This document shows positions 52,658 to 64,000 of a stretch of 64,000 nucleotides of DNA, piece by piece (the stretch's first letter is position 1; every line of letters starts with the position of its first letter). The notes below the pieces were generated by a model. That model had not been told where the DNA came from and did no database searches. It saw only the letters and a program-made list of their open reading frames with translations. Both the position numbers and the translations under genes were made by a program. Source of the DNA: Verrucomicrobiota bacterium (lineage in GTDB: Bacteria > Verrucomicrobiota > Verrucomicrobiia > Verrucomicrobiales > Verrucomicrobiaceae); NCBI GenBank assembly GCA_025360015.1, contig JANYCZ010000024.1, positions 57,137 through 121,136 on the forward strand, given 5' to 3'.

Positions 52658-55600
52658 TCAGTGCTCGTGCAAAACGTTGTGCAGAGCCCGCAAAATAGTT
52701 TCGGCCGTGTAGGGCTTGGGCAGGAACTGCCGAACCCCCGTACCCGCAGCCTTCGCCACTCCATTGTTGGAATTGATGCCGCTGGCGGCGATGATGCAAA
52801 CCTCGGGGTTCATTTTCATCAGCACCTGAATTGTGGTGGTGCCGTCCATGACCGGCATCCTCATGTCGGTCAAAACCAGGGCGATGTCGTTTTGATGTTT
52901 TGAGTAGAGGGTCACCGCTTCCGCGCCATCCGCAGCCAGCAGCACCCGGTAGCCGTAGGCTTCCAAGGTCTGGCGCGTGATTTCGCGCACGGCCGCCTCG
53001 TCATCGACGAAGAGCACCAGCTCGTTATTGCCGCGCGGCAGCACCTGTTCTTCCACCACCTGGTGCGCCGTGACCTGTGCGGGCTGCGCGGGAAGATACA
53101 CACGGAAGCAGGAACCATGTCCCAGCTCGCTGTAAACACGGAAGAAGCCGCCATGGCTTTTCATGATGGCCAGCGAAGTGGACAGCCCCAGCCCGGTGCC
53201 TTTGCCCATTTCCTTGGTGGTGAAAAAGGGGTCGAAGATTTTAGGGAGAATTTCCGACGCAATGCCTACACCATCGTCCTCGACACTGATCATGATGTGC
53301 GGCCCGCCACGCGCTTCGATGTTCATGGCGGCGTATTGCGCATCGATCAGAATGTTGGCCGCGCTGATCGTGAGCGTGCCTCCGGCGGGCATGGCGTCCC
53401 GCGCATTGACGCACAGATTGAGCAGCACCTGATGGATCTGCGTCGGATCGCCTGACACCGTGTCGGTTTTGAGCAGTTCATCATGCGTCCGGAGCTGGAT
53501 GTTTTTGGGAAAGGTGTCTCCGACGATGCGTGCCAGATCCTGCAGCAGACGGCTGATCTGCAGACGCATCTTCTGCCCTTCCATGCCCCTGGCAAAGGAC
53601 AGCACCTGGTTGAGCATGTCCGCCCCGCGGCGTGCACTGGAGGCGATGGTCTCCAGCGTTGCCCTGCAGTCCGCGTCCTTGATGCGCAGATTGAGCAGAT
53701 CCACCGACATCATGATCGGGGTGAGGACATTGTTGAGATCATGGGCGATGCCGCCCGCCAGCGTGCCGATGCTTTCCATGCGCTGGGAGCGTAGAATCTG
53801 ATCTTCCAGCCGTTTTTGCTCGGTAATGTTCGTATTGATGGCGAGCACGCATTTGGGCCTGCCTTCAGCGTCGCGAACGAGAGTCCAGCGCCCCTCCACA
53901 GTCAGCTCTTCCCCGGTCTTGGTCACCTGCTGGATTTCACCCGCCCATTCCCCCTCGGCGAGCACTCTGCTGTTCCTTTCCTCGAACTGTGTACGATCAA
54001 TGTAGAGCAGTTCGGAGATCTTGCGCCCCTTCGCCTCCTCGGCGGTCCAGCCGTAGAGCAGTTCGGCGCTTTTGTTCCAGTAGGTGATGCTGTGGTCAAG
54101 ATCACGCACCAGGATGGCATCGTTTGCCTTGTCCAGCAGCGAGGCCTGCTGGCGCAGCATGTCCTCCACCTGTCTGCGCTCCCATTGGGCAAGCACGAGG
54201 GAAATGAAATGGGCCAGCGAGGTCGCAAAGCTTTTCTCCTCTGGCAGCCAGGTCCGTAGCGGGCCGACATGCTCATGGCAGAGCACTCCGGCCAGCACCC
54301 CGCCCACATGCAGCGGGGCATCCAGCATGGAAGTGATCCCCAGCGGCGAGAGATAGGTTTCGGTGAATTCACGGGTGCGCGGGTCATTGCGCGCATCATC
54401 CGCCGCAATGGTTTCATTTTGCGCCATGGCGCGGAAATAGGTCGGGTAATCTCTGCCCTGCAGTTCCGGGCCGGAGGAGTGTCGCCGCGCGCCAGCCTCA
54501 AACAGCACCTGGCAGACGATGCTGCTGCGATTTTGATCAAACCGCCAGATGCTGACACGCTCCACTTCCATGGCGTGGGCGATTTCTTCCGTGATCAACC
54601 GGAATGCCGTCTCCAAATGGACCGCCTGCATGACGCCGCCACGGATCATCCGTGCCAGTGCGAGGTGCTGCCTTTCATAGCGCAGATTACTCTGCCAGAG
54701 CCGATCAGCAGCCTCCTTGCGTGCAGTGATGTCCCGCTGAACCGCCACAAAATGAGTCGGCCTGCCGCTGGCGTCGGTGATCGGCACGACATCAATCTCA
54801 ACACAGAAAGGAGAGCCGTCCTTCTTGTAGTTGATCAGTTCCTCCTTGCTTGGCAGCCCTTGGGCGAGGGCCGCGTGCATGCGGCCGAGCGCAAACCGGT
54901 CAGTGGCCGGCCCCTGCAGGAAGCGAGGGTTGCGTCCCAGTGTTTCTTCCCGGGTGTAGCCGGTATGCCTGGTGAAGGCATCGTTCACGAAAACGATGCG
55001 CGGGCCGGGTTCATTCAGTGGCTCAGGCTCGGTGACGAGGACGATGTCACTGAGATGAGCTACACACGTTTCCAGCAGCCGTAGCTGTTCCTGATTGTGG
55101 CGTGATTCGGTGATGTCTTTGCAGAGCACCACCATGTTCAGAACCACCCCGGATGCATCCCGAATGGCGGAGACGCTGTTTTCCACCCAGGCCACCTCGC
55201 CATTTTTGCAAAGGTAGCGTTTTTCAACGATGAAGTCGTGGATCTCTCCATCAATCAATTTCTGGTTCAGCCCCTGCTTGCGCACCCCGTCGTCAGGATG
55301 AGTGATGGAGGCAAAGGATCTGCCGATCATTTCGTTTTCCGCGTAACCGGTGATCTGGCAGTAGTGTTTGTTAATATGGAGGATGATCCCTCCCATGTCC
55401 GTGATGGCAAAGCCCACGCTGGCATTGGCGAAGGCATGGCGGAAGCGCAGCTCGCTGGTTTTAAACACCTCCTCGGCAAGCTTGCGCTCCGTGATGTCAT
55501 GCGCCGTGCCCACCATCCGCAAGGGCTGGCCAGTTTGCTCATCCAGAAATATCTGGGCGTCTTCGTGGATGTGCCGTACGTTGCCTTGCGGCAGAATGAT

Positions 55601-56386
55601 CCGGTGGTCGATCGAATAACGCCCATGGGTGCGAATGGCCTCGCTGACGGCCTGGCGGATCATTTCACGATCATCGGGATGAACCGCACGAAAGAAATTT
55701 TCATTGGAGGCTTCGATGCCGTCCACTTCATGACCAAAAATGCGAAAAATCTCATCCGACCAGCGCAGCGCATTGCGGCCAGGATTGTCCAGGTCGGTCA
55801 GATCAAGTTCCCAGCTGCCGAAATGTGAAATGCGCTGGGCTGCGGCCATGGTGGCCTCGCTATGATGTGTCCGTTCCTGCGCTTCCTGATGGCGCAGTTC
55901 CAGTGCTGCCTGCTTACGGGAGGAAATGTCAATGCAGGTGATGAGGGCGCCCGCACTGTCATGCACTGGCAGCGGGAGGAGGGTGATTTCGATCCAGCAG
56001 CCAGGGACGGATGCCAGAAGATACGATTCAATGCGAACGCCCTGCGATTGGTGTTCCAACACTTCCTTGAGAGCCTGTGACCATCGGGCCGCCCCTTCAA
56101 ATCGGGGCTCGCATTCCCTAGCAAAGAAATCAAAACAGCTGCCGCCGGTTTCCGGCAGGCGCAGCTCCTGGCCCTGAGCCGCCACCAGGCGATCCAGCCC
56201 GCCATTCACTTCACGAATGAGACCGTGACTGTCTACCCTGATCACCAGGCTGCAGGGGAGGGACTGCTCCTGCACATTCAGCGCGGAATCTGGAAAGGCA
56301 GGCTTCATGGCTGAATGGCTGCCAATACTCTCACCTCCAAGAGGCACAATATCATTTTCGCCTCTGGGCAAATAATACGTGGGCAT
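52658..56386 (-). CDS. Giant hybrid kinase, PAS/GAF multi-sensor, LOV-like domain
   Basis: A 1242-residue soluble kinase convergent with the previous gene (14-base gap). By eye: PAS (40-160), PAS (180-300), PAS (305-430), a LOV-like PAS (430-560), GAF (575-745), PAS (760-875), His882 in [11 protein letters not shown], HATPase with [23 protein letters not shown] and TGLGLSTSLA, receiver at the C-terminus (LTDMRMPVMDG, LPKPYT). The LOV-like domain has LGRNPRFLQGPATDR: position 487 is Pro where photoactive LOV domains have Cys (GRNCRFLQG), so flavin-Cys photochemistry is not expected. Otherwise the domain follows LOV closely. Confidence 0.9.
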   Translation of the reverse strand: MPTYYLPRGENDIVPLGGESIGSHSAMKPAFPDSALNVQEQSLPCSLVIRVDSHGLIREVNGGLDRLVAAQGQELRLPETGGSCFDFFARECEPRFEGAARWSQALKEVLEHQSQGVRIESYLLASVPGCWIEITLLPLPVHDSAGALITCIDISSRKQAALELRHQEAQERTHHSEATMAAAQRISHFGSWELDLTDLDNPGRNALRWSDEIFRIFGHEVDGIEASNENFFRAVHPDDREMIRQAVSEAIRTHGRYSIDHRIILPQGNVRHIHEDAQIFLDEQTGQPLRMVGTAHDITERKLAEEVFKTSELRFRHAFANASVGFAITDMGGIILHINKHYCQITGYAENEMIGRSFASITHPDDGVRKQGLNQKLIDGEIHDFIVEKRYLCKNGEVAWVENSVSAIRDASGVVLNMVVLCKDITESRHNQEQLRLLETCVAHLSDIVLVTEPEPLNEPGPRIVFVNDAFTRHTGYTREETLGRNPRFLQGPATDRFALGRMHAALAQGLPSKEELINYKKDGSPFCVEIDVVPITDASGRPTHFVAVQRDITARKEAADRLWQSNLRYERQHLALARMIRGGVMQAVHLETAFRLITEEIAHAMEVERVSIWRFDQNRSSIVCQVLFEAGARRHSSGPELQGRDYPTYFRAMAQNETIAADDARNDPRTREFTETYLSPLGITSMLDAPLHVGGVLAGVLCHEHVGPLRTWLPEEKSFATSLAHFISLVLAQWERRQVEDMLRQQASLLDKANDAILVRDLDHSITYWNKSAELLYGWTAEEAKGRKISELLYIDRTQFEERNSRVLAEGEWAGEIQQVTKTGEELTVEGRWTLVRDAEGRPKCVLAINTNITEQKRLEDQILRSQRMESIGTLAGGIAHDLNNVLTPIMMSVDLLNLRIKDADCRATLETIASSARRGADMLNQVLSFARGMEGQKMRLQISRLLQDLARIVGDTFPKNIQLRTHDELLKTDTVSGDPTQIHQVLLNLCVNARDAMPAGGTLTISAANILIDAQYAAMNIEARGGPHIMISVEDDGVGIASEILPKIFDPFFTTKEMGKGTGLGLSTSLAIMKSHGGFFRVYSELGHGSCFRVYLPAQPAQVTAHQVVEEQVLPRGNNELVLFVDDEAAVREITRQTLEAYGYRVLLAADGAEAVTLYSKHQNDIALVLTDMRMPVMDGTTTIQVLMKMNPEVCIIAASGINSNNGVAKAAGTGVRQFLPKPYTAETILRALHNVLHEH

Positions 56387-56684
56387 TTCTTACGCCGGAG
56401 GGATCTGTGTGCAAAGAGACACATGTTGGAACACAACGGCCAGGATGTGCTTATCCTTGGAAGGGATTTGCTCCGGTAAGCAACAGAAAGACAATAAAAT
56501 AGGGGGGCGAGCCATGCCGTTCAATCGGTCATTGGCCGATGTGGTCAAGACCCTGTGCATACCAAATAATGGGGTGTGGACAATTTGAGAAAAATTCCAT
56601 GTCCACTATGCAGACTGGAGGTTTCCTCTGTTCCCTTGTTTGAGGTGAGCAGGGGCCTTTATAGCCTGCCTGCGCTGTGTCTTC
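56387..56684. other. Intergenic region with 17-bp palindrome
   Basis: 298 bases between two minus-strand kinase genes. ATCGGTCATTGGCCGAT (56524-56540) is a palindrome with one mismatched pair, and on the minus strand it follows TTGACC by 2 bases and ends before TTGAAC, so it could be an operator inside a promoter. Nothing else is recognised, no ORF has coding character. Confidence 0.3.
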
Positions 56685-58493
56685 TCACAACCGCGCCGGC
56701 TGCAGCAGAGCCTGGCCGACGATATTGAGCAGTTCCACCATGCCAAAGGGCTTGGGCAGGAAATTTTCACCGGCTTTCAGTTCCTTCGCATTGCTCAGAC
56801 TAGTCGGAGAATAGCCGCAGGTGAATATGACAGGGAGCGTCGGATCTTCCGCAGCCAAGGCTTTTTCGAGGTCGAAACCGCTGACTCCGCCGGGCAGCTT
56901 AACATCAATGAGTGCGAGCTTGATGACCGCAGACTTCTCGCGCCAGACGGCCCAGGCTTCATTGGCATCCGCGGCCGTGAGCACCTTGTGCCCCTGGCTG
57001 GTGAGCACGTATTCCATCACCTGGCGCACCGAATCCTCATCGTCAACGATCAGAATGGTCGATGCTTCATCCTTGGCATTGGTGCCCAGGAGTTTTTTCT
57101 CCGGCGTTGCGGGTGTGGGCGCGGTGCCAGTGGCGACTGGCAGATAAATGGAGAATTCCGTGCCGACTTCCAGCACGCTCCTGGCATCAATCCAGCCCCC
57201 TTGCATGCGCACCAGACCCTGCACGAGGATCAACGCGATGTCCGCACCGCCTTCTTGATCAGAAGCCAGTTTGGATGAGTCGAACAAGCCTGTCAGCTCG
57301 GCAGGTGTCAGCCCCTTGCCGGTGTCAGAAATCGTCATGACAATATGATCTCCTGGTTTGGCCTCCGCATGGATCTGACAGGCGACCGCAGCGTCTGGTA
57401 TGAGCAGCTGCCTGGTTTGAATCATCAATCTGCCTCCCATCGGCATGGCTTCACGCGCATGGAGGAGGAGATTGAAAATGATCTGTTCCAAGGCGGCCTG
57501 ATCCGCCATGACACAGGGCAGGTCAGGGTTATGGCTGATTTGGATGGCGATCTGTTCTCCAATGGCTTTCTGCAGCATCGAAGCCTGGCCGTCGATGATC
57601 TGTCCGAGGTGCAGGGGGGTCGGCTGCAGGTATTCGCGCCGGTTGAACGACACAAACTGTGAAGTGACTCCCGCAGCGCGCTGCGTGGCGAGGATGAGCT
57701 CTTTGAGAGTGGCTGGGGGCAGCACGCTGGAACCAGCGTCATTCTGGGTGTGCTGCGCCACTTCCAAATGGCCCTGAATCGCGGTGAGATAGTTGTTAAA
57801 AAAGTGAGCCATCGCATCCGCAAAACGTCCAACGCTTTCCAGACGCTGGTTCCTGCACAGCTGATCCTCCAACTGCTTGCGGTGATCCTGCTCCATACGC
57901 AGCCGATTGCTGACGTCTTCGAAGCGTGAAGTTACCTCAAGCAGCTGGGCACTCAGGCTAAGATTGCGATGCGAGGTTTGAGTTTCCGTACCCTGCCGGG
58001 TCGTGAGGGTGCGGATGAGCTGAGTGATTTCGAAAGGAACCAGTCTGAACTTGAACACTAGAAGCTGCGGACTGGCACCCAGGTCGATGGGGATTTGCTC
58101 GAATGACTCCAGTTGGGAAACGGCATGCAGCACCACATGCAAGTCACGCTGGGTCTGCCATAAGCGGTTGATGATGTGGCGATAATCTTTCCCATAAAAA
58201 AGACGTCCATCTATAATGACAGCGGAGAAGGGTCTGTGCCCCTGTGCTGCCGCTTCGACCAGTGCCAACGCCTCTTTTTCATTCGCAGTGCAGACCACCT
58301 CGGGCGCTGGAGCCGCCGATTTGGCTTTGTTGCTGACATGCGTAGCACCCAGCGGCGCAGAGGAACTGCCGCTGGCGTTCATGTTCTGCAGGGCGTGTGA
58401 GATGCGCAGGTCCTCTTGCAAGGATTGCTCTTCGGTCACAATCAGAATACGACTGCAAGTGCTCACGTTGTGCTGAATGGTATTTAGATACAT
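56685..58493 (-). CDS. Hybrid kinase with pseudo-receiver and degenerate N box
   Basis: A 602-residue soluble protein. Residues 15-150 form a receiver-like domain (SRILIVTEEQSLQEDL, VIIDGRLFYGKDY) without clear catalytic acid pair. A coiled-coil linker leads to His230 in DAMAHFFNNYLTAI. In the ATPase domain the N box reads NLLLHAREAMPMGG (His where Asn is expected for Mg-ATP binding), while G1 DTGKGL is present and the GLGL-type lid is altered (EGGADIALILVQGL). A full receiver closes the protein (ALIDVKLPGGVSG, LPKPFG). Its upstream region is AT-rich and shared with a divergent kinase gene. The missing Asn points to a pseudo-kinase or phosphatase. Confidence 0.8.
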   Translation of the reverse strand: MYLNTIQHNVSTCSRILIVTEEQSLQEDLRISHALQNMNASGSSSAPLGATHVSNKAKSAAPAPEVVCTANEKEALALVEAAAQGHRPFSAVIIDGRLFYGKDYRHIINRLWQTQRDLHVVLHAVSQLESFEQIPIDLGASPQLLVFKFRLVPFEITQLIRTLTTRQGTETQTSHRNLSLSAQLLEVTSRFEDVSNRLRMEQDHRKQLEDQLCRNQRLESVGRFADAMAHFFNNYLTAIQGHLEVAQHTQNDAGSSVLPPATLKELILATQRAAGVTSQFVSFNRREYLQPTPLHLGQIIDGQASMLQKAIGEQIAIQISHNPDLPCVMADQAALEQIIFNLLLHAREAMPMGGRLMIQTRQLLIPDAAVACQIHAEAKPGDHIVMTISDTGKGLTPAELTGLFDSSKLASDQEGGADIALILVQGLVRMQGGWIDARSVLEVGTEFSIYLPVATGTAPTPATPEKKLLGTNAKDEASTILIVDDEDSVRQVMEYVLTSQGHKVLTAADANEAWAVWREKSAVIKLALIDVKLPGGVSGFDLEKALAAEDPTLPVIFTCGYSPTSLSNAKELKAGENFLPKPFGMVELLNIVGQALLQPARL

Positions 58494-58705: not shown

Positions 58706-59413
58706 ATGCCCACCAAAGCCCTTGAAATGGAAAGAAACTCAGCCGCGATGCTGCTACAGGCGCTGAGCTGTCTGTTGAAGGAAGAAGATGCTCAACGAGT
58801 CGATCTCGCCCATTTGCTGCACAAAGACATGGCCGGCGGCTTGGTGGCCTGCGCTTCGCTGGGCGAAATGATGCGGCACGAACTTGCCAACGGCGGGGAT
58901 ACGGCCAGCGTCGGCAAATTGCTGGCCAGCCTGGATGCCACCCTGCGGCAGACACTGCAGCTGGTGCGGGACATGACTGAAAAGCAGTTTCCTCCCGTTT
59001 TAAAAGCTTTCGGACTGCATGTGGCCCTGCAGCAGCTGGTGCGCAATGTGGGGGAAAATTTTGCCGGCTCACTCGTGCTTCACATCAACGGTGACGAGCC
59101 GTCGTTCGATCTCGCCAGCCGGCTCAATCTGTTTCGAATCATGCAGGCGCTGCTGAAGCATTGCGTGCGCTTTGCCAACACCTCCTGGGTGGAGGTGACC
59201 TGCCGGGGGTCGGCTGAGAAACTGGAAATCACCATTGATCACGATGGGGGTGACAGCATCTGGAAGGAGATGGTGCCGGGGTCAGAAATGGGCGTCATCG
59301 AAGCCAGATGCGCCCTGCTGGGATCCCGCATCCAAGTCATGGGCGCCGGCCCGGCCGGCAGCTCACGGATATGCCTGATGGCGCTGCCGGCATCTTCACA
59401 GTCCCCCGCATGA
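58706..59413 (+). CDS. HisKA_3-type sensor kinase, degenerate
   Basis: A 235-residue soluble protein with the shape of the short NarX/DegS-type kinases. A histidine lies at 39 in HLLHKDMAGGLVACASLG, compared with the usual ELHDDLGQ motif; the dimerisation helices continue to about 95. In the ATPase part the N box reads FRIMQALLKHCVRFANTSWV (His for the usual Asn) and G1 is DHDGG, so ATP binding is questionable. The NarL-type regulator gene follows after 16-28 bases and is its obvious partner. No sensor domain is visible, so it may take its signal from other kinases in the island. Confidence 0.7.
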   Translation: MPTKALEMERNSAAMLLQALSCLLKEEDAQRVDLAHLLHKDMAGGLVACASLGEMMRHELANGGDTASVGKLLASLDATLRQTLQLVRDMTEKQFPPVLKAFGLHVALQQLVRNVGENFAGSLVLHINGDEPSFDLASRLNLFRIMQALLKHCVRFANTSWVEVTCRGSAEKLEITIDHDGGDSIWKEMVPGSEMGVIEARCALLGSRIQVMGAGPAGSSRICLMALPASSQSPA

Positions 59414-59441
59414 ACCCCTCATTACCACTTTGAATTCTCTC

Positions 59442-60089
59442 ATGTCCTCCCCCCCGCCATTCAGCATTTTGGTTGTCGATGACCATGCGCTGGTGCGTGA
59501 GGCCTTCACGAGCATGCTGAGGGGGGAATTTCCCCAGGCCACGGTGGTTTCCACGGGCACTTGTGCAGAGGCGATGGTTGAAGCCCGCCTGCGCAATTAC
59601 GAGATCGCCCTGGTGGACATTGAGCTGGGAGACCGATCAGGCATGGAGCTGACCACGGAACTGCGCACGCTGCCCACTCCGCCCAGAATCATCGCGGTTT
59701 CGATGCATCAGGAGGAGACGTTTGTCTCACGCACCATGCAGCTCGGAGCGCGCTCGTATGTGACCAAGGATGCGCCGCCGCATGAGCTGTTTGATGCGAT
59801 TCGCAGCACCCTGGAGGGACGCAGCTACATTTCCAGAGAACTGGCGCAGAAGTTCGCGGATCGGTCGATCCGCAAAGGCTCCGCCGGGCAGGTGCATGAG
59901 AAGCTTTCCAACCGTGAACTGGAAGTGCTCATGCAGCTGGCTCGTGGCAAAAGCCTCAAGCAGGTGGCGCTCGATCTTTCTCTCAGTCCACGAACCGTGG
60001 CCGTGCACAAACACAACCTGTGCCGCAAAACCGGGCTCAAAGGAACTGTCGAAATTCTCAGATACTGCCAGTCCAACGGACTCGCCTGA
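59442..60089 (+). CDS. NarL/LuxR-family response regulator
   Basis: A 215-residue regulator. Receiver: VVDDHALVREAF, phospho-acceptor Asp in ALVDIELGDRSG (Asp59 from this start), VSMHQEETF and Lys in YVTKDAPP. The LuxR helix-turn-helix covers about 145-210: LSNRELEVLMQLARGKSLKQ followed by VALDLSLSPRTVAVHKHNL. The frame is open up to a TTG at 59430; the ATG at 59442 is preferred. It pairs with the HisKA_3 gene before it, and the FadL gene follows after 19 bases, so the porin may be cotranscribed with it. Confidence 0.9.
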   Translation: MSSPPPFSILVVDDHALVREAFTSMLRGEFPQATVVSTGTCAEAMVEARLRNYEIALVDIELGDRSGMELTTELRTLPTPPRIIAVSMHQEETFVSRTMQLGARSYVTKDAPPHELFDAIRSTLEGRSYISRELAQKFADRSIRKGSAGQVHEKLSNRELEVLMQLARGKSLKQVALDLSLSPRTVAVHKHNLCRKTGLKGTVEILRYCQSNGLA

Positions 60090-60108
60090 CCCTGACCACT
60101 TCCCAACC

Positions 60109-61359
60109 ATGAAAACACACGCCTTCCATCTCCTGCTCGTCCTGAGTTTTGCCATCGCGACGGCTCATGCGGCCGAAACACTTTCGGTGGTGCCTGATTC
60201 CGCCCAGGCGCTGGGCATTGTGGGCGGCAGATATGCGAACCTGAAAGACGCCTCCTCCGTGCGGGTTTCTCCGGCCAACATTCTGCAAATCGAAAAGAGC
60301 GAACTGCTGATCAATACCGCGATCTGGCATGGCGACATCCGCTTTGATTCAAACAGCGGGCAGTCAGTCCAGATGAACAAGCCATGGGTTTTCCCTGCCA
60401 GCATGTACTTCGTGCAGCCGATCATCCCTGGAAGGCTGTCGTTTGGCCTCGGTGTCAGCACCCCTTATGGCATGGCTGCTTCTTACCCAAAAGACACGAG
60501 CGGACCTCTGCACTACGCCTTGCCCTACTCGACCAACCTGCTGACGGTGGACATCACCCCGGCCGTGGCATTCAAAGTCACCGACAATCTGAGTGTGGCC
60601 GTCGGCCTGGACATCATGTACGCCGACCTGCGGCTGAAACAGTTTTATGATTGGAGCGGTTTTGGCGGCTCGCCGAATGGAGACCTCCAGCTGCATGGCC
60701 AGGGCTGGGGACTGGGCGCTTATGCGGGCGTCAACTGGACCATCGCCAAAAGACATCGTCTGGCACTGGTGGGCAGGCTGCCGGTAAAGATCAATTTTGC
60801 CGGTGATTTCAGGGCCTCCGACATGCCACCGGCGCTCTATCCGCTGGGCTTCCGCCCGTCCAGCACCTTCAACTCCGACATGACCTTCCCGGGCTCGATC
60901 GCTGTGGGCTATGGCTTCGATGTGACGGACCGCTTCACCGTGGGTTTTGACTTCAAGTGGTCTGACAATTCATCCCATGACGATCTGCCACTGCAGATTG
61001 GCAGCAATCAGGCCCTGCTGGGTGGCGCAACCAATTCCGTCTTCGGCTGGAGAAACTCCATCGATCTGGGCACGGGCATGACGTACCGGTTGAATGAGAA
61101 CTGGACACTGCGCGGTGGTTATCTGTATTCGGAAAATTCCCAGACCGCCACCTACTACACCCCCGTCGCACCCTCCAATGACAGGCATGTATTCAGTCTC
61201 GGCGTGGGGTGGCGTGGAAAGACCCGCGGCGTGGATGTGACTTACGCCTACGTTTACAATCCCACACGGGTGGTCAGTGGCGCAGTGCAGCCGCTGTTCG
61301 ATGGCAACTACAAACACCAGTGGCAGGTGCTTTCACTCAGCTTCACCCAGCGGTTTTAA
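60109..61359 (+). CDS. FadL/TodX-family outer-membrane transporter
   Basis: A 416-residue outer-membrane beta-barrel. Signal peptide HAFHLLLVLSFAIATAHAAE. The hatch-like N-terminus reads ALGIVGGRYANLKDASSVRV and SPANILQIEKSELL, matching FadL's NPAxL region. Periodic amphipathic strands follow: LSFGLGVSTPYGMAASYP, VGYGFDVTDRFTVGFDFKWS, LTYRLNENWTLRGGYLYS-like segments, and the chain ends KHQWQVLSLSFTQRF with a terminal Phe. FadL proteins carry long-chain fatty acids or other hydrophobic compounds across the outer membrane. Start ATG at 60109. It lies between a NarL-type regulator (19 bases) and a PhcB-like methyltransferase gene (142 bases). Confidence 0.85.
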   Translation: MKTHAFHLLLVLSFAIATAHAAETLSVVPDSAQALGIVGGRYANLKDASSVRVSPANILQIEKSELLINTAIWHGDIRFDSNSGQSVQMNKPWVFPASMYFVQPIIPGRLSFGLGVSTPYGMAASYPKDTSGPLHYALPYSTNLLTVDITPAVAFKVTDNLSVAVGLDIMYADLRLKQFYDWSGFGGSPNGDLQLHGQGWGLGAYAGVNWTIAKRHRLALVGRLPVKINFAGDFRASDMPPALYPLGFRPSSTFNSDMTFPGSIAVGYGFDVTDRFTVGFDFKWSDNSSHDDLPLQIGSNQALLGGATNSVFGWRNSIDLGTGMTYRLNENWTLRGGYLYSENSQTATYYTPVAPSNDRHVFSLGVGWRGKTRGVDVTYAYVYNPTRVVSGAVQPLFDGNYKHQWQVLSLSFTQRF

Positions 61360-61501
61360 TTCAAAATGAATGACAACATGTTTGTTTCCCCCGTATGTCT
61401 CCAGCACCTTCGCGGTGCCATGCCAAAAAAGGCTGCTCACTTTCTCAAGAAAGCTTGTGCTGTCTTCAAGGCGCAAAACGCTTTAGCGGAGGATCTGTCA
61501 C

Positions 61502-62950
61502 ATGGAGAATAACGATAACGCACTGCCCAACCTCGCTCCATCCGGGGAGCGTCTCAGTTTCATCATCTGCCGCAACAGCCAGGGGGCTGAAGTGCGCGGC
61601 ACTCTGCACCGGCTCACACGTTATTTGGGCGTGTTTGAGGTCTATAATCCTTACAGCATCGTACAGCTCTCTGAAGTGCTGAATGACTTCAGGATCATGA
61701 TGAACGACCGCGTGGTTTACACCGGCAGGGCCACCATCGCCAACTTGGTGAACACCGGCATCATGCTCATCTGCGAGGCATCGCTGTCTGATGAGGGCTG
61801 GATCGACATCGACATCCTCTCCCCCTCGCAGAACAAGGGCCGCCTGCTGTCAGATTTCGCCGATTTCCTGCGCGAGACGGAAAAGAGCTATCGCGTCGTG
61901 CCGGAGTTTAAAATCGTGGTGGCGGACATGCACACCATGCTTTCTGACCTGCGCAGGTGGATGGAGCAGGTGGAGCTGGGCGTGCGCTCACTGCCAACGG
62001 GAGACCGCATCCAGGCTGAGCGTGAAGTGCTCCTGCAGATGGAGGAGCCCATCGTTCCAACGGTGTATCCGCTGATGAAACGGTTTGAGGAATCAGCCGC
62101 CAGCATTCCGCTGGATCAGCAGCCGGTGCATCGCAGCTACATCAAGCGCCAGCTGCATCCGCTCGTGCTCTGTGCGCCGTTTGTTTACCGGACTTATCAC
62201 AAGCCGCTGGGCTATGCTGGCGACTATGAAATGGTCAGCATGATGCTGCGTGATCCGTATGAAGGCAGCTCGATTTTTGCGAAACTGCTCAACAAGCTCT
62301 ATCTGGACATCCCGCCGGTGATCGCCCACCGCAACCGCATCGGTTATCTGGTCGCGCAGTTAAAGACTGAGACGACGCGTGCGGCCGCCCAGAACCGTGT
62401 CGCCCGCATTTACAATCTGGGCTGCGGCCCGGCTCAGGAGATTCAGAACTTCCTCACCCATGAGCCCATTTCTGACTCGGCAGACTTGCTGCTGCTGGAC
62501 TTCAATGATGAGACGATCATGCACACGACGCGATCACTGGAAGATCTGCGCAACCGCCATCGTCGCCGCACCGGCCTGCGCTTTGAGAAAAAATCCGTGC
62601 ATCAGGTTTTGAAAGAGTCCGGCCGTGCGGCGGCCCAGGCGGGCACGTACGACATGGTCTATTGCGCCGGTTTGTTTGATTACCTCTCCGACCGCATCTG
62701 CAGGCGACTTTTGGAGATTTTTTATGATCTGCTCGCCCCCGGCGGACTGCTGATCGCCACCAATGTTCACCCCAGCAATCCCTGGCGAAACTGGATGGAG
62801 TATCTGGCGGAATGGCACCTCGTTTACCGTGACGAGGAGCAGTTTCTCAAACTCGCGCCTGATCGCGCCCCCCCGGGCTCCTACTTGGTGAAACCAGATG
62901 CCACCGGCGTGAACATCTTCCTCGAAGTGCGCAAACCTCTCGATGTCTGA
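61502..62950 (+). CDS. PhcB-like SAM methyltransferase with PilZ-like N-terminus
   Basis: A 482-residue protein. The first 130 residues look PilZ-like (SFIICRNSQGAEVRGTLHRL, FEVYNPYSIVQLSEVLNDFR) but lack the RxxxR c-di-GMP motif. Conserved HKPLGYAGDYEMVSMM at 233-248, then the SAM fold: ARIYNLGCGPAQEI (302-315), LLLLDFNDETIM and MVYCAGLFDYLSDRIC. This is the family labelled extracellular factor (3-hydroxypalmitate methyl ester) biosynthesis, named after Ralstonia PhcB; homology of function is inference. GGAGGA stands 8 bases before the ATG. The last 8 bases overlap the start of the membrane kinase gene, so both are translated together. Confidence 0.75.
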   Translation: MENNDNALPNLAPSGERLSFIICRNSQGAEVRGTLHRLTRYLGVFEVYNPYSIVQLSEVLNDFRIMMNDRVVYTGRATIANLVNTGIMLICEASLSDEGWIDIDILSPSQNKGRLLSDFADFLRETEKSYRVVPEFKIVVADMHTMLSDLRRWMEQVELGVRSLPTGDRIQAEREVLLQMEEPIVPTVYPLMKRFEESAASIPLDQQPVHRSYIKRQLHPLVLCAPFVYRTYHKPLGYAGDYEMVSMMLRDPYEGSSIFAKLLNKLYLDIPPVIAHRNRIGYLVAQLKTETTRAAAQNRVARIYNLGCGPAQEIQNFLTHEPISDSADLLLLDFNDETIMHTTRSLEDLRNRHRRRTGLRFEKKSVHQVLKESGRAAAQAGTYDMVYCAGLFDYLSDRICRRLLEIFYDLLAPGGLLIATNVHPSNPWRNWMEYLAEWHLVYRDEEQFLKLAPDRAPPGSYLVKPDATGVNIFLEVRKPLDV

Positions 62951-63884
62951 TGCTTCTCCAGTTTTAGCTGGTAGCCTGAAAGGAACCTTTCAGGCCTACG
63001 AGCAGGACATCCGAGTCCGCAACTACCAGCTTTGTGGCATCCTGGCCGCAATTTTCATGGTGGCGGGGAGCTCGCTGGACTGGGTGGTGTTTGGCTGGGA
63101 TGGGGTGCGGAATTTTTTCATCGCGCGGGTGCTTTCCGCCGTGGTCATGATGGTGATCTGGGGGATCTTGAACACCGCATGGGGCAAACGCATGCATGGT
63201 CTGCTGGGCCTGCTCATGTCCTTGCCGCTCATCGTTTCGATTTCATGGATGATTTACGCCAAGGAGGGTGCGGACTCGCCCTACTATGCCGGGTTGAACC
63301 TGGTGATGCTGGGAGCCGCAATCCTCATGCGCTGGACGCTGCAGGACAGCATCATCGTGGTGGTTTTGACCGTATCAGCCTATTTGCTGGCGTGTTATTT
63401 CCATGGCCCGATCCTCAATCGCAGCATCTTCTTCAACAACTTGTACTTTCTGTTCGTCACGGGGGTCTTCACGACGGCGGGCACCTGGTTTTACAACAGC
63501 ATCCGCTTCTCCGAGTTCAAACTGCGTCACGATCTGGACCTCAACCGCGCCGAGCTTGAGGCCAGCAACCAGAAACTGCGTGAGCTCGATGAAGCCAAGA
63601 GCCGCTTCTTTGCCAACATCAGCCATGAACTCCGCACGCCGCTGACCCTGCTCATTGCGCCATTGGAAAGCCTGATCCAGCGTGCTGAATCCACCCGTCC
63701 CCAGGAAGAGCGTGACCTGATGGACACGATGCATGGCAACTCCATGCGCCTGCTGAAGCTCATCAATGATCTGCTGGATCTGGTGCGCCTCGAATCTGGT
63801 CGGGCGCAGGTCCGCACCCAGCGTGTGAATGTGAACGATTTCATCAAGGGCCTCGCCACCGGCGGCGCAATTTTTATTCTGTAA
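62943..63884 (+). pseudogene. Six-TM histidine kinase (PhcS-like) truncated by IS
   Basis: The 313 codons encode six predicted membrane helices (about 30-46, 59-78, 86-104, 115-130, 135-153, 164-183), a coiled coil (EFKLRHDLDLNRAELEASNQ), and the phospho-acceptor His228 in FFANISHELRTPLTLL. Normal sequence continues to VNVNDFIKGLA (residue 305), where the usual kinase would go on into its ATPase domain; here it reads TGGAIFIL and stops. The ATPase domain is absent, and an IS256-type transposase end lies just beyond. The 5-6 TM N-terminus followed by HisKA resembles PhcS/LqsS autoinducer kinases. Truncated, so probably inactive by itself. Confidence 0.75.
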
Positions 63885-64000
63885 AAGTAGCGATCAGGTT
63901 TGGGGTGGCTCAGAGGAGTTCATGTTGAGGTAAATTTTGCCGGTGCTCCACTCGTCGTTCTGCTCGCAGAGCAGGGCGGAGACCAGGCGCAGCAGCGAGG
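63858..64000. mobile_element. IS256-family insertion sequence, left end
   Basis: The coding sequence of the kinase loses family likeness after 63857. From 63894 leftward end inward the minus strand encodes a typical IS256/mutator transposase C-terminus. The exact boundary lies somewhere in 63858-63880 (sequence CCGGCGGCGCAATTTTTATT then CTGTAAAAG, resembling IS256-type ends that carry a TGTAAAA element). The right end and target duplication are outside the window. Confidence 0.65.
63894..64000 (-). CDS. IS256-family transposase C-terminus (partial)
   Basis: Last 34 codons of a minus-strand gene that continues past the window edge. They read SLLRLVSALLCEQNDEW, then STGKIYLNM and a Ser/Pro-rich end SSEPPQT, stop TGA at 63896-63894. 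RLVxAxLxExxxEWxxGRxYL is the standard C-terminal line of IS256 (mutator-type) transposases, which use a DDE active site lying outside this window. Being short, the assignment rests on that one pattern. Confidence 0.75.
   Translation of the reverse strand, partial: SLLRLVSALLCEQNDEWSTGKIYLNMNSSEPPQT

Follow-up and report, generated by a model that had tools for sequence, protein, structure and literature searches.

Does a member of the Verrucomicrobiota carry a quorum-sensing system of the Phc type, and does an outer-membrane porin encoded beside it admit the signal? The question is raised by a gene cassette at the end of contig JANYCZ010000024.1 of Verrucomicrobiota bacterium GCA_025360015.1. 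The stretch analysed (the window) has 64,000 nt and covers contig positions 57137-121136 (G000:C54:57137-121136); the contig terminates at the window end. G000 is the genome under study, C21, C42, C52 and C12 are its other contigs, and all other G and L numbers denote compared genomes and loci. An earlier note, made from the letters alone, described five open reading frames (ORFs) in a single direction, the last two overlapping by 8 bases, and proposed a cell-density or lipid-signal system with a FadL-type porin as entry route. All five ORFs were found at the claimed places on the + strand (Table 1); the 8 shared bases belong to the methyltransferase and kinase ORFs.

In the known Phc system the quorum signal is a methyl ester (PMC8578825, accessible part). 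We think it probable that the locus is a Phc-type cassette: a PhcB-like enzyme would make a fatty-acid methyl ester signal, a PhcS-like kinase would sense it and the FadL porin would pass the ester through the outer membrane.

The PhcB-type methyltransferase

The 482-aa protein is a class I methyltransferase (Methyltransf_12 in Pfam, E 4e-7) and, judged by alignments and trees, a full-length relative of PhcB. In a protein search of plasmids its sole near full-length match (94% of the query) was PhcB of a Paraburkholderia graminis plasmid, encoded at the head of a phc operon (38% identity over 454 aa, E 3e-106); a kinase gene and two response regulator genes follow phcB there. Identity to 19 betaproteobacterial alignment rows was 38-40%. 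A 50-row PhcB alignment has invariant columns along the full length, N-terminal domain included, that are shared with betaproteobacterial PhcB. In the tree a 100/100 branch separates the PhcB set, with the 482-aa protein inside it, from the methyltransferases of Roseateles and Rhizobium; the grouping with non-signalling families, named in the earlier note as the outcome that would tell against a PhcB-like enzyme, did not occur. The protein is 96-97% identical to the PhcBs of its seven nearest genus relatives, and these near-identical proteins bear Prosthecobacter names.

An AlphaFold2 model of PhcB (pLDDT 85, pTM 0.70) has a six-strand N-terminal barrel (residues 19-95, window 61556-61786), helices and a methyltransferase domain. 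The barrel, conserved with betaproteobacterial PhcB, may resemble PilZ folds; three N-termini searched against Pfam up to E 10 gave no usable match. A fold search with the whole model returned general methyltransferases only (best 3ocj, E 1.4e-10, 17% identity), and a PDB sequence search gave no convincing relative. At L068, L069 (G064) and L221 (G280) a receiver domain is fused in front of a PhcB-like methyltransferase.

The enzyme may have a product other than a 3-hydroxy fatty acid ester, for example a polyketide-chain ester, so that a Phc-like layout would serve a different signal molecule. In six Verrucomicrobiota loci (L213-L218) an ORF of ~2,080-2,360 aa lies directly upstream of phcB; in L213, the one scanned, it encodes a type I polyketide synthase (KS-AT-DH-ER-KR-ACP), a hint that the signal may carry a different acyl chain. 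Identity to betaproteobacterial PhcB of only ~40% also leaves room for another product. However, the genus cassette has no such synthase in its mapped neighbourhood, and residues are conserved with betaproteobacterial PhcB along the whole protein; we regard a different product as quite improbable.

In the first PhcB tree betaproteobacterial PhcB was nested inside Verrucomicrobiota on starred branches. An origin of betaproteobacterial PhcB from Verrucomicrobiota was nevertheless set aside: once nine long or odd rows were removed, a single Verrucomicrobiota clade withstood the approximately unbiased (AU) test (p 0.279, not rejected), so that phcB may have been transferred in either direction.

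Conservation of the cassette

PhcB was searched for in 76 genomes, 46 of them same-genus relatives. Near full-length PhcB (60-97%) was present in 31 of the 46 and a fragment in one (G003). Among the 32 genus loci, the PhcS membrane part comes directly after PhcB at 31, the series continues through to the second kinase at 30, and a PhcQ-like gene is present at 30; where a member is missing, either the contig ends (L042, L070) or the locus has decayed (L073). FadL lies upstream of phcB at 24/32 loci, the order in relatives being FadL-PhcB-PhcS-PhcQ in one direction. The porin-methyltransferase-kinase order that the earlier note wished to see in related genomes is thus kept at these 24 loci, and the core neighbours do not vary freely. 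At the other eight, the contig ends first (L041), only FadL fragments remain (L073) or FadL is missing within 10 kb (L056-L059, L062, L063).

Beyond the genus, PhcB relatives were found in 22/387 genomes sampled from the phylum (E 1e-40) and in 79/384 genomes sampled from the class Verrucomicrobiia (E 1e-60), the latter in 44/171 genera.

FadL genes linked to phcB

The porin matches Toluene_X/OMPP1 (PF03349, E 2.7e-48) over the whole protein (residues 17-419 of the translated stretch) and so belongs, as the earlier note had it, to the FadL family; its signal peptide was judged by eye. FadL was detected within 10 kb of phcB in 8/22 phcB genomes of the first phylum sample (0.12 expected). A fresh class sample consisted of 57 phcB-bearing genomes not looked at earlier: 45 have a FadL over the cut-off, and 32 have it within 10 kb of phcB, where 0.25 would be expected by chance if FadL genes were placed at random. 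The 32 linked genomes span 14/25 families, and the linked FadL is upstream on the same strand in 12, upstream on the opposite strand in 16 and downstream in four. A FadL tree of fetched loci (41 linked and 21 unlinked rows) places the linked FadLs in two clades, where they make up 22/25 and 19/23 rows; three further clades, with 5, 5 and 2 FadLs, consist of unlinked rows alone. Since the linked FadLs fall in two clades, two kinds of FadL are, by this tree, drawn to the same operon.

Several observations weigh against a porin-assisted ester signal. In 25/57 class genomes phcB has no linked FadL: 13 have an unlinked one (including G461, counted as unlinked, where phcB and FadL each lie at a contig end and linkage is not judgeable) and 12 have no FadL match. 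At six genus loci phcB likewise has no FadL linked to it; of these genomes, four lack any FadL-family gene and two have a distant one only. The 82 reference loci comprise two plasmid loci and 80 loci betaproteobacterial by their titles, kept from at least 569 confirmed in a contig scan with six PhcBs; an iterated FadL profile matched 0/82 of them, in flanks of up to 9 kb, some of which are cut, and FadL is therefore not needed by every Phc-type system. The chance expectations given above treat genomes as independent though they are related, and are too kind to the linkage; the more dependable figure is the spread over 14 families, and it is the family count, with the varied arrangements, that carries the linkage argument. 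The sensor gene is broken in this genome (see below), and in some lineages the nearest PhcB relatives sit behind a type I polyketide synthase, so that the signal may be built on an acyl chain other than a 3-hydroxy fatty acid. The proposal of a cell-density or lipid-signal system with a porin accordingly stands for the homology of PhcB and PhcS and for the kept gene order, and has to be restricted as regards the sensor of this genome, the generality of the FadL neighbour and, as described below, the upstream kinase/NarL pair.

Could FadL be a bystander, brought close to phcB by shared lipid- or envelope-related regions and playing no role in signalling? The 25 class genomes with phcB alone and the reference loci lacking FadL would fit such a view. 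It is already weakened by the excess of linked genomes over the chance figure, by linkage in 14 families with varied orientation and position, and by the two FadL clades, given that these lineages also have FadL clades without a single linked member; we hold it to be very unlikely.

FadL proteins classically import long-chain fatty acids. A FadL encoded near phcB would suit the supply of substrate just as well as the entry of a signal, and the cassette might serve nutrient sensing instead of quorum sensing: FadL would import environmental long-chain fatty acids, PhcB would methylate them inside and the PhcS variant would read the ester as a measure of external lipid, so that the porin would act for the substrate and not for the signal. 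G000 has two FadL-family genes, one of them in the cassette, which is compatible with such a supply role. On the other hand, PhcB in the known system uses the cell's own acyl pool, the 12 class genomes with phcB and no FadL match would lack the importer, and the polyketide synthase before phcB in some lineages points to cell-made chains. Nutrient sensing thus appears unlikely.

Because the FadL neighbourhood recurs in 32/57 further class genomes with phcB, we return to a porin that likely gives the predicted oily fatty-ester signal its passage through the outer membrane. Such a step is reasonable, as FadL of Sinorhizobium takes up long-chain acyl-homoserine lactones (PMC9938287, accessible part). 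The titles and abstract openings listed by searches of the open-licence literature describe neither a Phc system in Verrucomicrobiota nor a FadL with a Phc signal.

The PhcS variant and the PhcQ-like protein

The intact kinase of relatives has ~894 aa and consists of a membrane sensor, a HisKA-HATPase unit, a receiver and a PhcS-type kinase, i.e. two HisKA-HATPase units flank the receiver. The PhcS-likeness noted earlier is supported by comparison of a relative's kinase with PhcS of the P. graminis plasmid operon: the membrane part matches with E 3e-37 and the second (C-terminal) kinase with E 3e-42. Across the 12 reference loci listed, matches of the C-terminal kinase to PhcS reach 1e-36 or better, and those to PhcR, where there are any, are no better than 1e-17. 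The phospho-accepting histidine of PhcS is His230 (PMC11960443, accessible part); the equivalent motif is at 233 in P. graminis, at 669 (second kinase) in relative L040 and at 266 in a second PhcS of this genome. As to the ‘six-TM histidine kinase’ of the earlier note, six transmembrane (TM) segments are plausible by eye and the membrane part matches PhcS, whereas the hydropathy scan showed five peaks, of which two overlap, and the 313-aa ORF of the window is truncated, with HisKA as its only Pfam domain.

The 416-aa PhcQ-like protein of relatives combines a receiver with an ATPase part. It is 34% identical (E 2e-41) to the product of the last gene of the P. graminis plasmid operon. In most reference loci listed, it matches PhcQ in the receiver, at ~42-45% over the first ~155 residues, and PhcR over its length at 27-31%. 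The short middle regulator of the P. graminis plasmid operon has no real match. The order in betaproteobacterial reference loci is B, S, R, Q, the published phc operon order (PMC8578825 and PMC6989110, accessible parts).

Mapping of 58 Verrucomicrobiota loci showed the hybrid PhcS at 42 and an ordinary PhcS at 10. The remaining six have neither as a single gene: the hybrid is present as two genes at L212 and is absent next to phcB at L223, as is the ordinary form; L267 and L278 reach contig ends, and L271 and L275 show short pieces only. The receiver-kinase part sits inside the PhcS variant; in the phylum member G187 (L212) the variant is two genes in an S-then-R layout. The kinase may or may not be a plain PhcS-PhcR fusion: its second kinase is nearer to PhcS than to PhcR, yet L212 has the same parts as two genes, S then R.

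An insertion sequence splits the sensor gene

In the window the kinase gene is cut at 63860/63861, between the first HisKA and its ATPase, by an IS256/Mutator-type element lying at the contig end. The last 140 bases of the window are found again at five further contig ends in G000; the element is likely one reason for the assembly breaks. Its reverse strand reads as a transposase end, and the longer C12 copy matches Transposase_mut (PF00872) with E 1.3e-14. An imperfect terminal repeat, TTCTGTAAAAG, partly shared, was found near both element ends. A 10-base target-site duplication, CCTCGCCACC, has one copy in the window and a second on C21, which starts with the other element end, followed by that second copy, the kinase remainder and the PhcQ-like gene. 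C21:133-1911 corresponds to residues 302-894 of the relatives' kinase (91% identity) and C21:1929-3176 to the PhcQ-like gene (94%); the empty site aligns gap-free to a relative. With the insertion-sequence end, the target-site duplication and the remainder on C21, a natural short form of 313 aa is ruled out.

The element resembles the IS256/Mutator group (PF00872) in its transposase C-terminus of the Mutator type, imperfect terminal repeats, short target-site duplication and many copies; it differs in that no full copy is assembled here, only ends at contig borders. The insertion lies before the His669-type second kinase, so that the sensor is parted from the PhcS-type kinase, with the rest of the gene on C21. 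An intact PhcS sensor kinase is thus missing at this cassette, and since the split falls between the first HisKA and its ATPase, the cassette sensor copy of this genome is expected to be dead.

The split kinase might be a first step of loss in a decaying locus, leaving the cassette functionless here. Relative G003 (L073) illustrates such an outcome: of its cassette there remain PhcB residues 1-175 and FadL fragments beside an intact PhcQ-like gene, the kinase being gone. Still, the methyltransferase, FadL and the remaining kinase frame are intact in G000, and PhcB has kept its 96-97% identity to the seven nearest genus relatives. We find decay rather doubtful, and it would concern one genome, not the system.

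A second PhcS-PhcQ system

This genome encodes a second PhcS of 480 aa, intact and of ordinary layout, followed by a PhcQ-like protein (418 aa) on G000:C42 (L179:6457-9161, - strand), with no methyltransferase beside it. The second PhcS is present in 37/47 genus genomes, and the intact pair might still respond in G000. A short PhcB-like methyltransferase of 315 aa, 26% identical to PhcB over 251 aa, is encoded at G000:C52:1720-2415 (L074:1717-2664, - strand). In five genus genomes (G018, G019, G034, G042, G046) a relative of the short enzyme is encoded 270-420 bases upstream of the second PhcS, suggesting, by gene position, a second ester-like signalling module.

Locus layout and neighbouring genes

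Table 1. Annotated features at the end of the window (window coordinates)
Feature	Position	Strand	Basis
Cytoplasmic kinase, UhpB/NarQ-like and degenerate, 235 aa; accessory gene outside the core	58706..59413	+	ORF, NCBIfam, genus loci
NarL/UhpA-type response regulator, 219 aa; accessory, possible cassette output	59430..60089	+	Response regulator and GerE domains
FadL-family outer-membrane porin, 416 aa from ATG, signal-peptide-like N-terminus MKTHAFHLLLVLSFAIATAHA	60109..61359	+	Toluene_X
PhcB-type methyltransferase, 482 aa, with a beta-barrel domain at the N-terminus (19-95), a helical part and a Rossmann methyltransferase domain	61502..62950	+	Homology, trees, AlphaFold2
5′ part of the gene for a PhcS-type hybrid kinase, coding for the membrane sensor and the first HisKA (His228)	62943..63860	+	
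Kinase open frame, 313 aa, continuing into the insertion sequence	62943-63884	+	
Target-site duplication of the insertion sequence	63851..63860	.	Second copy at G000:C21:138-147
IS256/Mutator-type insertion sequence end with transposase C-terminus	63861..64000	-	Extends to contig end

The first two ORFs were described earlier as a degenerate HisKA_3 kinase and a NarL-type regulator. The regulator has the expected domains. The 235-aa kinase matches UhpB (NCBIfam, E 6e-13); in the Pfam scan HisKA_3 was absent and HATPase_c (0.049) stayed below the cut-off. In 16/16 aligned rows the histidine is present and the asparagine of what we take to be the N-box motif is missing; because the state is the same in all rows, the alignment indicates a conserved degenerate kinase rather than a decaying one. 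Lacking that asparagine, it may act without ATP. The pair is present at only 15/32 genus loci, which rules it out as cassette core and removes it from the membership first proposed.

Two large hybrid kinases (1242 and 602 aa; window 52658-58493, - strand) point away from the cassette; their position is kept in many genus relatives.

Proposed mechanism and meaning

In the scheme we propose, PhcB would esterify a (hydroxy) fatty acid in the cytoplasm, and the ester would build up with cell density. The hydrophobic ester would cross the outer membrane through FadL and bind the membrane sensor of the PhcS variant. Phosphate would then be relayed from the sensor to the internal receiver, to the PhcS-type kinase (His669 in the relative, counterpart of PhcS His230) and to the PhcQ-like receiver.

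A broader view, which we hold tentatively and at a little under even chances, is that Phc-type ester quorum sensing is widespread and native in Verrucomicrobiia, that a dedicated FadL gate has been repeatedly recruited beside the synthase for uptake of a signal too oily to get through the outer membrane by itself, and that this PhcS is a built-in phosphorelay. Quorum sensing is little described in Verrucomicrobiota, and the route by which long-chain signals get across the outer membrane has yet to be explained. With many families encoding a porin next to synthase and sensor, this passage becomes directly testable, and in non-pathogens that grow in the laboratory. With PhcB relatives in 79/384 sampled class genomes, the Phc system, first associated with a plant pathogen and related bacteria, gains a much wider home.

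Comparison with known systems

The Phc system of Ralstonia, Cupriavidus and Paraburkholderia (phcBSRQ with the LysR regulator PhcA) shares with the cassette a full-length PhcB, a six-TM-like PhcS sensor, a PhcS-type kinase, a PhcQ-like receiver protein and the order B-S-Q. It differs in several respects. Here an extra HisKA-HATPase unit and receiver lie within PhcS, as in 42/58 mapped Verrucomicrobiota loci. The PhcQ-like protein carries a PhcR-like kinase part, and the genus cassette appears to have no separate PhcR. Finally, a FadL gene is linked, and in this genome the sensor is broken. In Ralstonia, PhcQ binds and stabilises PhcA (PMC13320629, accessible part).

The closest parallel for the porin is FadL of Sinorhizobium (accessible part of PMC9938287): in both cases a FadL-family porin moves a long-chain hydrophobic quorum signal inwards, here as a prediction. 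The signal there is an acyl-homoserine lactone, whereas here FadL is encoded beside the synthase and the sensor that are predicted for an ester signal.

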